Assembly: GCA_900299205.1 (NCBI GenBank)
Contig: OMIW01000165.1
Span: forward strand, 1-23,349
DNA length: 23,349 nucleotides
Reading direction: 5' to 3'
Source: Pseudomonadota bacterium
Lineage (GTDB): Bacteria; Bdellovibrionota_C; UBA2361; OMIW01
A program made the translations under genes and the position numbers. The notes beneath the pieces are model-generated. The model did no database searches and had not been told where the DNA came from. It was given only the letters and a program-made list of their open reading frames with translations. Positions 1 to 13,581 of this stretch are shown piece by piece. Numbering within the stretch: position 1 is the first letter of the stretch; each line of letters starts with the position of its first letter.

Positions 1-119
1 ATATTCCTCCGGTTTTTCCTCGTCCTTTCGAATCGAGTCTGTGCCAAAGCAGCGGCACCCTCGCCTCGAACCCCCTTATTTCGCAGCCTCTTAGACGGGA
101 CATGTGGATGGATGAATAG
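1..119 (+). other. possible 3' end of an upstream gene (ambiguous)
   Basis: One plus-strand frame is open from base 3 to a TAG at 117-119 that directly abuts the ATG at 120. A second frame is open from base 1 to a TAA at 154-156 and would overlap the next gene. The third frame closes at 92-94. FliR/SctT is the usual gene before FlhB/SctU, and tight stop-start junctions are common there. The residues visible in these frames do not identify the gene, so this is only a possible partial CDS. Confidence 0.2.
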
Positions 120-887
120 ATGGAAAAGAGATTCCCGGGTTCGGCCAGACATATAAGAAAACTTCGTGAGAAGGGAACCACGATCGAGTCTGCTCTGTTC
201 CTAGGGGCCGTTCCGGTAGTGCTAGTTGGATTGTTCAGTTGGTCTAGCCATCGATGGATCTGCTCTCCCGTTGTCTCGATCGCTACTCAATGTTGGGGGG
301 GAGGTTCGCAGGGATTGGATCGCTGTCTTCGGAAAATATTGACCGCAGACTGGGGGGGGGTAGTGATGACCTTTGCAGGTTGCTCGGTGACATCCTTTGT
401 CCTCACGCTCGCTGTCAAGCGTCCCCACCTGCAGCTGCATCTGCTTGCCCCGAGTATGTCTCGATTAACTCCGACAGCGTGGATCGGTCGTTTGCGTCGT
501 TTGCCAATCCAGCTGATAGGTTCGCTCAGCGCATTGTTTCTTGGTTCTCTGGTCGCTTGGTGGATAGCGGAATATTTTATCCAGAGGGGGTTTTTCCCTC
601 TGTCCAACACCGGAGTCAACGAACTTTTATACCGATTGTCGGTGGGTATTGGATTTTTTTTGGCTTCGGTGGGAGCAGCTTCCTTCGGCACTGGGTGGTG
701 GCGTTTTCGATGGCAGACGATGATGACCGGGCAAGAGGTTCGGCAGGAGCAAAGAGATGAGTTTGGTGACCCATTAGTGCGGGGACAGCAGCGTAGCCTT
801 CAACGTGCGATGCTTCGCGAGGAGTTAGTAAAGGCGGTGAAGCGATCGTCGGTAGTAATCGTGGCTCGCGCCAATCGTGTGAGGTAG
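120..887 (+). CDS. FlhB/SctU-family export apparatus switch protein, N-terminal (membrane) half
   Basis: This 255-residue protein matches the first two thirds of the flagellar/type III secretion export switch (FlhB, YscU/SctU), which sits at the inner-membrane export gate and sets substrate order. It starts with the basic family signature RKLREKGTTIES (residues 13-24). Four membrane segments follow, at about 25-41, 79-99, 130-149 and 171-192, with the typical RLTP loop at 115-118. The cytoplasmic linker has the conserved QEVRQE and GDP (216-218) followed by the basic RGQQRSLQRAM helix. The protein stops after VVIVARANRVR, where family members continue into the NPTH autocleavage motif. The missing C-terminal domain is encoded by the next gene, 10 bases downstream in another frame. 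The combined length of about 355 residues is normal for the family. A flagellar or an injectisome system cannot be decided from this window. A G9 tract lies inside the gene at 352-360. A pseudogene cannot be fully excluded. Confidence 0.8.
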   Translation: MEKRFPGSARHIRKLREKGTTIESALFLGAVPVVLVGLFSWSSHRWICSPVVSIATQCWGGGSQGLDRCLRKILTADWGGVVMTFAGCSVTSFVLTLAVKRPHLQLHLLAPSMSRLTPTAWIGRLRRLPIQLIGSLSALFLGSLVAWWIAEYFIQRGFFPLSNTGVNELLYRLSVGIGFFLASVGAASFGTGWWRFRWQTMMTGQEVRQEQRDEFGDPLVRGQQRSLQRAMLREELVKAVKRSSVVIVARANRVR

Positions 888-897
888 GGGGGTAGAA

Positions 898-1200
898 ATG
901 GTATCCATAGACCAAAGTTTATTGGGGGGATTTTCGGGTGGAGCCAAAGGCCCCTCCTACCGTGGTGCCGTGGCCATTGGGTATGATGCTGCGGAAGATC
1001 ATGCTCCACGGATTGAGGCGCTTGGAGCCTATTTTAGTGCCGATGAGATAGTCGCCATCGCACGGAGCCACGGGGTGCCGGTTGTTGAGCAGAGCGCTAT
1101 TGTTGATGGACTTTTGGAGTGTGGTTTGGGTGATTATATTCCAAATGAGCTTTTTCGGGCGGTGGCTGCCGTATTTCGGGTGCTGGGCATCACCGGATAG
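898..1200 (+). CDS. FlhB/SctU-family C-terminal cytoplasmic domain as a separate protein
   Basis: This 100-residue protein matches the cytoplasmic domain that FlhB/SctU proteins release from their membrane half by autocleavage. AVAIGYD (24-30) corresponds to the strand just after the cleavage site. It is followed by AP (36-37), the ADEIVAIARSHGVPVVE helix-turn (48-64), GDYIP (78-82) and the closing ELFRAVAAVF helix. Where family members have NPTH, GPSY (18-21) is found, so the Asn needed for cleavage is absent. The ATG at 898 follows a GAGGTAGGGGGG purine stretch at 881-892 that can serve as ribosome binding site, and translational coupling with the upstream gene is likely. Stand-alone relatives of this domain (the YlqH/FlhX type) are known. 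Here its position directly after an FlhB lacking this part suggests that the two proteins assemble into one switch. Confidence 0.75.
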   Translation: MVSIDQSLLGGFSGGAKGPSYRGAVAIGYDAAEDHAPRIEALGAYFSADEIVAIARSHGVPVVEQSAIVDGLLECGLGDYIPNELFRAVAAVFRVLGITG

Positions 1201-1216
1201 GAGTATCCTCCTACTC
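1201..1216. terminator. small hairpin between convergent genes
   Basis: GAGTA and TACTC (5 bp stem, 6-base loop) lie in the 10-base gap between two convergent stop codons and slightly into the minus-strand gene. There is no clear T-run, so a terminator role is only possible. Confidence 0.2.
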
Positions 1217-2854
1217 TCTCTTGAGGCGAAGCTTCAGATCCTTCAGGAAATTTGATTGAGTTGTCTTTTTCGTAATGTTCAGAGAAGAAGGGTCAAACCA
1301 GATCGTCGCGGTCGTATCGAGGGGCGCTCCCGGACACTGGATGTAACCGCGCAGGTAAAGAGGGCCTGAGGTCGCGGAACGACGGGATAATCGGGCTACC
1401 AGTCCTGATGGCAAGGCCGATAGGGTGGAGGAAAAGAGGGTCGTGCCCTTTGAAAAAAGGCCTTTTCTCGAGAAGCCTGCCTTGATTGAAAAGGTACACT
1501 GCTGGCCGAATACCGACCCATATTCGTCCGACACAGAGGGTCGCAGAACTATCCGGGGACCGGCTATCAATAAGCGGATTCTCGTCGTACTGCTGGCTGA
1601 ACCCGACCCCCCCGAGGTCGGTGTCGCCGTCGGCGTCGGATTCGGCGAGACAGATGCCATGCATGATCCATAGGTCTGGACATGAGAGGCGATCTCATTG
1701 ATGGAGGATGCAGAAAAGGATGAAGGAGGATTCGAGGGGTTCAGCGATGTCGTCATGATTCCGTCGGAAACATGAACCGCGGAGAGTGTGTGACCGATCT
1801 CATGAGCGAGAATAATCGGATCGAGGGCATCTTGAAATCTGCGTATTGCTGCATAAGATGCCGAAGGAATACGACATATCACCCCGAGGTAGGCTATCCC
1901 GATAACTGAATCATCGAAGGTTCGATCAGTGAAAAGGACCCCCGCATTGGAAGAACCCTTGATATCCTGATTGCTAAAGAGTTCGAGAAAACTCTCAGGA
2001 TTTGTTATCGATGCCGGATACGACAGGGGGGAATTATCGACGAGCTGAGAATCGATTGAGAGGCTCATGGCGAGGTCATTTCCGTAGATCGCCGACGCCG
2101 CATTTACGATTGTTTGAATTCTGGTATTTGCATTTGCTCCGTAAAGACCTGACCACCTCCAATCTGCGACAGTTTTCAGGGTCAGTTTCTTGCTCAAATT
2201 AACGGCTCTTGATGACCTTGGTAGTGACGAAGGCGAGATATTACCGGATATTTCTCGAGCATGTTCCTCAAGGTGCCCCTTCAGTGGGCATCCCTTGTTG
2301 GCGAGAGCAAAATGGGGAGCCCTTACTACTCTCAACTTCTCGGCCCCCTCACCTCCGCTCAGTGAAAAAAAACGGGTACCTCCCCGCACACCGGAAGTTG
2401 CAAAGTTGAGCGTTAGCTTCTTCTCAATTCCTGAAAGTTCGGCGGAAGGGATGGCATATCCTGTCGACGGCAAAAGTCCAGATTGCTCGGTGATTGATGC
2501 TGCTGCCCACCTTCTACTGACGCTGCTCTGTCTTCCGGCATCTCTTGACGGTGATTCGGCGTAGCCTCGCCACAGGTTCGACGAACGTAATGAGGCGGGT
2601 CGCTTAAGCTTTATGGTTGTTACCCCGTTTCCTGGGAGCCACAATCGCAGGAGTAGTGAGTTCGCTTTGATGAGCTCTGTCGCTGAGAGAGCTCGAGTGA
2701 CACCATACTCAGTTCTGATGGAGATTATTTTCGCCGAGCGGGGGGTAGCAAGTGCGAGAGAGGGAAGGAGGAACACGCACCCCAGAATTGCCGTTGCAAT
2801 ATACCCCAAGTGGAGAGCGGGAGGAGGGAGGTGCACACAGGAGGGTTTTGACAT
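1211..2854 (-). CDS. secreted metzincin-type zinc metalloprotease
   Basis: With the start at 2854 the protein has 547 residues. The signal peptide is at about 17-36, with a likely cut after SLALA. The metzincin zinc signature HEIGHTLSAVH is at 351-361: His351, His355 and His361 bind zinc and Glu352 is catalytic. The Met-turn GIM follows at 365-367. Upstream segments such as ADWRWSGLYG and IAYLGVICR resemble the reprolysin/M12-like fold, so the catalytic domain probably spans about 228-398. A Ser/Pro/Thr/Gly linker (about 401-423) leads to a C-terminal domain I do not recognise. The long segment before the catalytic domain may be a propeptide. An in-frame ATG at 2944 would add 30 residues, but it would place the signal peptide unusually far in; AGGAG lies 11 bases before 2854. 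The product is expected outside the inner membrane. Its substrate is unknown. Confidence 0.75.
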   Translation of the reverse strand: MSKPSCVHLPPPALHLGYIATAILGCVFLLPSLALATPRSAKIISIRTEYGVTRALSATELIKANSLLLRLWLPGNGVTTIKLKRPASLRSSNLWRGYAESPSRDAGRQSSVSRRWAAASITEQSGLLPSTGYAIPSAELSGIEKKLTLNFATSGVRGGTRFFSLSGGEGAEKLRVVRAPHFALANKGCPLKGHLEEHAREISGNISPSSLPRSSRAVNLSKKLTLKTVADWRWSGLYGANANTRIQTIVNAASAIYGNDLAMSLSIDSQLVDNSPLSYPASITNPESFLELFSNQDIKGSSNAGVLFTDRTFDDSVIGIAYLGVICRIPSASYAAIRRFQDALDPIILAHEIGHTLSAVHVSDGIMTTSLNPSNPPSSFSASSINEIASHVQTYGSCMASVSPNPTPTATPTSGGSGSASSTTRIRLLIAGPRIVLRPSVSDEYGSVFGQQCTFSIKAGFSRKGLFSKGTTLFSSTLSALPSGLVARLSRRSATSGPLYLRGYIQCPGAPLDTTATIWFDPSSLNITKKTTQSNFLKDLKLRLKRE

Positions 2855-3060
2855 TGATGATCTGACTCCTATTGAGACCTGATGAGTCGACGCGTTCTTC
2901 ATGGGGGACCGCCAAAAGTTCTTGGGGGAGAGCGGGCAGCACATCTGTTGGTGTCTGCCTCCACCTAGTATTGTACTCGACCCCTCATGTCCATACCACT
3001 TGAATCAAGAAAAGTTTTCAAAGGCTATATATTTGAAAGAATCTAGATATCTACGACTTC

Positions 3061-12525: not shown

Positions 12526-13581
12526 TCAGTCGGTATCGTCCTCTGACTCATCGCTACCGCCACTTGTGAAATCGTTGTTCGTAAGATCCTCCTGTGGGAG
12601 CTCTCGCTGAAAAACAGGAGCTTCTCCCTCTGTGCTTACACTTACCCCCCGAAGAATAGCCTTTATCCCAGTGATAAACTCATCCTCCTCGGGCAGGTCA
12701 ACACACTCAGCGATACCGAAAGGCTGGCCCTCTATACGTATCGAAGACGGGGCGGGCGAAGGAGCCCACCAGAGAAGGGCACCCCGATGTTGGTAAGGTG
12801 TCAGAGATGCGTAATCGACCCCAAAGTGACTCAGGGCCGCGAGCCGTTCCTCTTCTCCCGCCTTTGTGAGTATTCGATCCACTTCGCTTTTGGGTAGCGC
12901 TGCCTCGGCTATTTTAAGAGAGAGGAAGCGAGCGATAGTATTTCGGCGGGCGACGAGTCGCTGCCACAGCAGATAATCGATAACATGGTCGTTCGACGGT
13001 AATTCACTCACTTTGGCGTGAAAAAGGGCTCCGCGACCGATCGCGGTGCACAGTCCGACCGATGCGGCACTCGCGAGTCCCGAGACGAGGCGCGATTTTT
13101 TTCTACCGTTAATCAGCTCTTGGGGATCAATCGCTACTGATAGTTCATCGCCATGAGCGAAGACAAAGAGGATGCGAACACCACTAGTGAACAGAGCAGC
13201 GGCAGCAGCTCGAAGTCCCTGAGAGAAAGAAGCTCCGAGGGGATAGTCGGCATCGGGAAATGAAGCCCAGTGGATCCCAAGCCTGTGGGCGTCGAGTCGG
13301 ACGATGATGCGCATATCCGGAAGAAACGAGATATCAGAGAGATTCTCAAACTTACTGAGAGCTCGATCCAATTCGGCGAGTCCGCGCCCGGTCGCCTGTG
13401 TATGTTGGTATCCCTTCGTCGAGCCATGTTCTGGTAAGCGGTTTGGGGGCGTGAAGGAGCCTCGTGGTGATGTTGCAGGTGCCTCACCCATTCGGTTGGT
13501 TGAGGTATGAGACGGAGTGCCCCCTCCGCGAGGAACGGGTCGTTGAGGTGCACGATGTCCCTGCGGTCGCAGCTTGAACAT
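12526..13581 (-). CDS. tRNA-His guanylyltransferase-like protein (Thg1/TLP, 3'-5' polymerase)
   Basis: Thg1-family enzymes add nucleotides to tRNA 5' ends in the 3'-5' direction. Eukaryotic Thg1 adds G-1 to tRNA-His, whereas bacterial and archaeal Thg1-like proteins (TLPs) can repair truncated tRNAs. The pattern here is clear. SKFENLSDISFLPDMRIIVR leads to RLDAHR with the metal ligand Asp97, and FAHGDELSVAI gives Asp145-Glu146. The 48-residue spacing matches the catalytic aspartates of yeast Thg1. FHAKVSELPSNDHVIDYLLW (187-206) equals the family segment FDGRV-YPS-DYLSWRQ, and GVDYASLTPYQHRGALLWW (254-272) closes the core. The eukaryotic HINN motif is not preserved, which fits a TLP. The 351-residue protein has a Pro/Gly/Arg-rich extension of about 70 residues in front and an acidic tail ending GGSDESEDDTD. 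GAAGGGA precedes the ATG. It is divergent from radC. Confidence 0.85.
   Translation of the reverse strand: MFKLRPQGHRAPQRPVPRGGGTPSHTSTNRMGEAPATSPRGSFTPPNRLPEHGSTKGYQHTQATGRGLAELDRALSKFENLSDISFLPDMRIIVRLDAHRLGIHWASFPDADYPLGASFSQGLRAAAAALFTSGVRILFVFAHGDELSVAIDPQELINGRKKSRLVSGLASAASVGLCTAIGRGALFHAKVSELPSNDHVIDYLLWQRLVARRNTIARFLSLKIAEAALPKSEVDRILTKAGEEERLAALSHFGVDYASLTPYQHRGALLWWAPSPAPSSIRIEGQPFGIAECVDLPEEDEFITGIKAILRGVSVSTEGEAPVFQRELPQEDLTNNDFTSGGSDESEDDTD

Follow-up and report, generated by a model that had tools for sequence, protein, structure and literature searches.

The export switch of type III export gates, a protein named FlhB in flagella and SctU in non-flagellar systems, is encoded in two pieces at the start of contig C165 of G000, the draft genome of an uncultured bacterium; the stretch analysed, hereafter the window, spans 23,349 nucleotides from the first base of that contig. 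Here, I show that the open reading frames (ORFs) at 120-887 and 898-1200 are the two halves of one FlhB/SctU protein and that the break between them falls at the autocleavage loop. The first, U_N, carries the membrane domain, the linker and the CN segment, and the second, U_C, the CC domain. Since the same split is common to dozens of related uncultured bacteria, it is, as far as genome comparison can tell, an inherited arrangement and not a sequencing error. The two ORFs probably represent the subunits of a naturally split SctU, the export switch of a non-flagellar type III gate, whose two chains would be produced by translation.

FlhB/SctU proteins cut themselves between the N and the P of an NPTH motif, a cleavage without which switching does not occur (PMC7064499); the resulting CC chain of the Yersinia protein is able to come off and to be secreted (PMC3504009). 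Whether the act of autocleavage is needed, or just its two-chain product, is a long-standing question.

Two genes for one export switch protein

Both halves exceed the curated cut-off (24.4 bits) of the Pfam family Bac_export_2 (FlhB/SctU, PF01312): U_N matches positions 2-256 (E 4.4e-26, 92.3 bits) and U_C positions 262-334 (E 3.7e-14, 53.1 bits), and jointly they span the 335-position model except for five positions around the cleavage loop. A preliminary description of this DNA had claimed that two genes of 255 and 100 residues together make up FlhB/SctU, with the break at the NPTH loop and the motif missing; all three points hold. U_N ends in SSVVIVARANRVR followed by the stop, just past strand beta-1, where the NPTH loop would start, and the N-terminal region of U_C, AKGPSYRGAVAIGYD, aligns to VVITN^PTHYAVALRYD in the genome's intact flagellar FlhB, which bears NPTH and adjoins FlhA on contig C127. 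Inspection of both window sequences revealed no NPTH in either half. The two ORFs lie in different frames, that of U_C being open from 883; codon usage is best for U_C in its own frame (0.15 vs at most -0.04 in the others) and weakly favours the own frame of U_N (-0.03 vs -0.10 to -0.43).

In profile searches of the PDB, U_N and U_C match, as separate chains, the two autocleavage products CN and CC. The U_N profile finds the CN chains of cleaved EscU, FlhB and SpaS crystals (3bzl_A, 3b1s_A, 3b0z_A, 3c01_A and 2vt1_A), with a strong match to SpaS (E 2.4e-43), and its match to SpaS/FlhB structures stops one to two residues before the cleavage Asn; likewise, the U_C profile matches CC chains starting at their third residue, the His of PTH. 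The AlphaFold2 (AF2) model of U_C (predicted local distance difference test, pLDDT, 85.7) retrieved with Foldseek only CC chains at good E-values, namely those of PscU, FlhB and EscU (5cul, 3b0z, 3b1s and 3bzl; E 4.5e-5 to 3.3e-4; template modelling score, TM, up to 0.88 by target), and the window U_C is thus predicted to have the CC fold. It is because the boundaries correspond exactly, and because of this fold, that a two-chain switch made by translation is proposed.

The pair consists of two ORFs and not of a single polypeptide with an autocleaving NPTH, which makes it a variant and not a standard autocleaving member of the family. Its halves score 59 and 49 bits against the SctU equivalog TIGR01404, under the cut-off of 358 bits. 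Encoding together with SctR, SctS and SctT is seen in relatives; the window contig ends 119 bp upstream of U_N.

Conservation of the split across the phylum

The phylum sample comprised 45 genomes from one class and at least 24 families. A C-terminally truncated U_N occurs in 36 of them, G000 included, and the 45 genomes searched yielded no intact copy of this paralogue, so that the split and the missing NPTH, whose conservation the preliminary description had proposed to check, proved to be shared. A PF01312 search of 57 related genomes likewise returned a recurring N-only protein that ends at about position 256, together with a C-only protein that begins at about 261, both on one contig and the same strand, 3-4 kb apart. 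When aligned to FlhB, none of 34 U_N and none of 25 U_C sequences keeps NPTH; in 33 of the 34 U_N the chain runs on for 2-20 residues beyond the Asn column, and the one remaining row is an alignment artefact. The flagellar FlhB of the phylum genomes that bear the split pair is intact, with NPTH present. Outside the phylum, the U_N-like matches listed (from 382 genomes of relatives and sampled bacteria) are full-length frames of at least 340 aa, bar one at a contig edge; a profile search with the SctR alignment mostly retrieved ordinary FliP/SctR.

A separate observation concerns a metagenome-assembled genome (MAG) of the Armatimonadota, in which a SctU of 248 aa without C-domain (L171:10909-11655) adjoins SctR and is followed by a SctV-like gene.

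The operon and its links in relatives

In relatives the pair belongs to what is here called the B-type system, with the gene order c7 (SctI-like), c13 (SctP-like), SctR, SctS, SctT, U_N, histidine kinase, U_C and an FHA/SctD-like gene, the last of which the family closest to the window lacks. The kinase gene (2.5-3.6 kb) encodes PAS, GAF and HATPase domains, and U_N, kinase and U_C lie on one contig at 24 relative loci, with mostly tiny gaps or overlaps. The halves are therefore consecutive genes, as first described, in G000 only, where 10 bp separate them; their adjacency is a peculiarity of this genome. Synthesis of one chain by frameshifting or readthrough is ruled out in the relatives, where the kinase gene intervenes. 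In one relative (L048:8821-15802), about 3.4 kb of other genes separates the kinase from U_C, which can thus move out of the operon.

The protein c7 resembles SctI (PF17001 in 11 of 14 members, best E 3.6e-5) and c13 resembles SctP/FliK (PF02120 in 6 of 13 members, best E 4.7e-4). That SctI- and SctP-like genes have been kept points to a switch that still operates in the relatives.

Relatives have three FlhA/SctV classes per genome, one of which, SctV-B (about 705 aa), comes after TadC within a Tad-pilus operon that further contains genes for a PP2C phosphatase, an FHA protein, a Ser/Thr kinase, TadZ, CpaB and TadA. From their co-occurrence, this SctV would belong to the B-type gate. At loci L213-L222 and L227, SctV within the Tad operon makes up a hybrid between a pilus and a type III system, accompanied by eukaryote-like signalling genes.

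In the same lineage, the SctU of a third export system, the C-type, breaks off directly behind the membrane domain, and no neighbouring gene encodes a C-domain (L057, L058, L059, L060, L062, L067 and L073). The SctU-like protein of this system in G000, assigned by gene order, has only 186 aa (contig C151; L079:10343-14374); since the C-type system has this gene of its own, the window pair as part of it is ruled out.

Phylogeny and history of the pair

In the U_N tree, the window sequence groups with the split U_N of family f11 (Shimodaira-Hasegawa-like approximate likelihood ratio test, SH-aLRT, 84). In the U_C tree, the B-type sequences, that of the window among them, cluster in one clade (99/97), in which the window adjoins family f11 (ultrafast bootstrap, UFBoot, 94). 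A supported branch (96/95) puts this clade with FlhB/SctU and separates it from the FlhX proteins of the lineage itself, although with only 88 columns the U_C tree is not decisive. Both window halves join the f11 pairs, and the pair was therefore inherited together. As family f11 has the kinase, its absence from the window is most simply read as a loss.

Conservation also supports the view, put forward at the outset, that the gene underwent fission at the autocleavage site and that NPTH was lost.

Proposed mechanism

In the proposed scenario, the SctU gene of an ancestor of this lineage would have split at the self-cutting loop and NPTH would have been lost, in either order, a loss only after the split being plausible. 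U_N would dock on SctRST, and the separately translated U_C would bind it non-covalently, via the interface by which CN and CC stay attached once autocleavage has occurred; the mature two-chain switch would thus be made by translation instead of proteolysis. I infer that the two chains bind and act like cleaved SctU, and such a switch might be permanently in the two-chain state or be controlled by expression, as was suggested earlier. In the relatives the gate would work with the SctI-like rod protein, the SctP/FliK-like ruler, the sensor kinase and the SctV of the Tad operon, this joint function being conjectural, and the window copy would have lost the kinase gene. A bolder extension, which is quite unlikely, sees a lineage-wide two-part switch in which the sensor kinase encoded between the halves adjusts how much U_C is supplied or how it docks, substrate switching being achieved by signalling and not by once-only autoproteolysis.

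Alternative explanations

Several observations weigh against a working split SctU at this locus. YscU-CC leaves CN irreversibly in vitro (PMC3504009), so that the chains may fail to assemble in trans. Modelled by itself with AF2, U_N matches solved FlhB weakly (TM 0.31, E 1.0), an uninformative outcome that may be expected of an extended membrane protein. The window U_N has the longest branch in the U_N tree. In G000 (about 90% complete), the kinase was found neither between the window halves nor elsewhere, a search for a relocated copy having returned weak matches only, the best of which (C49) is a different receiver-PAS kinase; likewise not found in this genome were the SctR of the B-type system, which would lie just past the contig edge (only two FliP/SctR were found, neither of B-type), and SctV-B (only FlhA and the C-type class are seen), which scores 500-600 bits in most relatives. 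Because these three genes were not found, and because of the long U_N branch, the window copy is possibly non-functional; it either still works in reduced form or is an early remnant. Of the two findings that, according to the preliminary description, would have pointed to a pseudogene or an assembly error, an intact copy with NPTH in relatives was not found, but decay of the remaining export genes is partly borne out, these same three genes not having been found. That the pair is a remnant of a system being lost, with no present function, the split family being real in relatives, is nonetheless somewhat unlikely. Such a loss would account for the missing kinase and SctV-B, for the U_N branch, and for the only Tad operon found in G000 (contig C150), in which a TadG-like gene, and not SctV as in relatives, comes after TadC; yet both ORFs are intact and keep the positions most conserved in the family, SctRST would sit past the contig edge in an incomplete MAG, the flagellar FlhB of G000 is also fast-evolving (branch of 0.88 vs about 0.3), and the operon on C150 may be a different Tad cluster.

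The remaining alternatives concern the origin and use of the split itself. The switch may have become dispensable, the system, like the needleless type III secretion system T3SS* of Myxococcus, having no change from needle to effector export to make, the motif and the covalent link having decayed neutrally and U_C being structural only. The link with Tad genes is indeed reminiscent of Myxococcus Kil/T3SS*, a system devoid of needle and secretin (PMC12075869). In two MAGs of the Myxococcota (Sandaracinaceae, Polyangia; L237, L240), moreover, SctU is a single chain without NPTH and with a degenerate C-domain; in view of both, cleavage may have become less necessary at an earlier time or more than once. 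The proposal is unlikely all the same, for the operon retains the SctI-like rod and the SctP/FliK-like ruler, classical partners of the SctU switch, and U_C is well conserved (mean column identity 36%). More improbable is an origin without fission, in which SctU lost its C-domain and a free-standing small protein of the FlhX/FlhB-like kind (TIGR00789) was recruited in its place. Free-standing C-domain proteins do occur in the same genomes (a weak one lies on contig C59 of G000), U_C scores higher with TIGR00789 (66.9 bits) than with the SctU or FlhB models (49 and 42), and the sister C-type system has a SctU without any C-domain; that score is, however, under the TIGR00789 cut-off of 117, the boundary of either half agrees with the cleavage site, and the 88-column tree, though not decisive, places U_C apart from the lineage's FlhX. 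Finally, an assembly or sequencing error that broke one intact gene has next to no probability. A MAG in 206 contigs and G-runs near the junction might invite it, but 35 other genomes share the split, a gene of 2.5-3.6 kb separating the halves there, and NPTH is in neither half; as a full explanation, an error is thereby refuted, in agreement with the earlier judgement on a sequencing slip.

The window locus and its neighbours

G000 is a MAG of 2.45 Mb in 206 contigs (89.75% complete). The upstream export genes lie beyond the view of the window; comparison with the relatives' loci revealed no resemblance of the stub at the contig edge to their SctT ends, and no end overlaps were found between the window contig and other G000 contigs, among eight contigs. 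Convergent with U_C lies a gene for a reprolysin-like M12 metallopeptidase (1211-2944, minus strand), and further on, at 12526-13581 (minus strand), a Thg1-like protein (tRNA-His guanylyltransferase, PF04446, E 1.6e-7) is encoded, in a bacterium.

Table 1. Features of the split SctU locus (window coordinates)
Feature	Position	Strand	Length	Evidence or remark
Contig-edge stub 5' of U_N	1..119	+		SctR-SctS-SctT expected beyond the stub
U_N (SctU/FlhB membrane domain, linker and CN segment)	120..887	+	255 aa	PF01312 match
Junction at the autocleavage position	888..897	+	10 bp	Kinase gene here in relatives, absent in G000
U_C (SctU/FlhB CC domain, separate gene, without NPTH)	898..1200	+	100 aa	PF01312 match; AF2 model; U_C tree

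Comparison with known systems

Among the open-access papers searched, none was found to describe a split SctU, which is no proof of novelty. If the split SctU is what it seems, a lineage that has over a long evolutionary span made the two-chain product from two genes, without NPTH, would be a natural experiment in which the act of cleavage is dispensable, and an export gate would have been rewired with a sensor kinase and the Tad pilus in uncultured bacteria.

With FlhB/SctU proteins (YscU, EscU, SpaS; PF01312) the pair shares the same domains in the same order, products that end and start at the limits of the CN and CC chains, and, in relatives, a U_N that adjoins SctRST; unlike them, it is encoded by two genes, has no NPTH, which makes autocleavage impossible at that site, and in relatives has a kinase between its halves. 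FlhX/FlhB-like proteins of the Bacillus YlqH type (TIGR00789) are likewise free-standing CC-like domains of about 90-110 aa, whereas U_C partners a SctU without C-domain, sits in its operon and forms a separate clade; the known free-standing FlhX proteins accompany an intact FlhB.

In Myxococcus xanthus, Kil (Tad) and the needleless T3SS*, which lacks needle and secretin, form a predation machine (PMC12075869), a type in which pilus and export gate act jointly on contact with prey. This system and the myxobacterial non-flagellar type III secretion system (Myxo NF-T3SS; PMC3459982) resemble the present one in having a non-flagellar gate, without flagellar rod and hook genes, tied to a Tad pilus, a likeness to Kil/T3SS* known here from gene linkage alone (SctV-B after TadC in relatives); they differ in that here SctV lies inside the Tad operon, the SctI- and SctP-like genes are kept and SctU is split.
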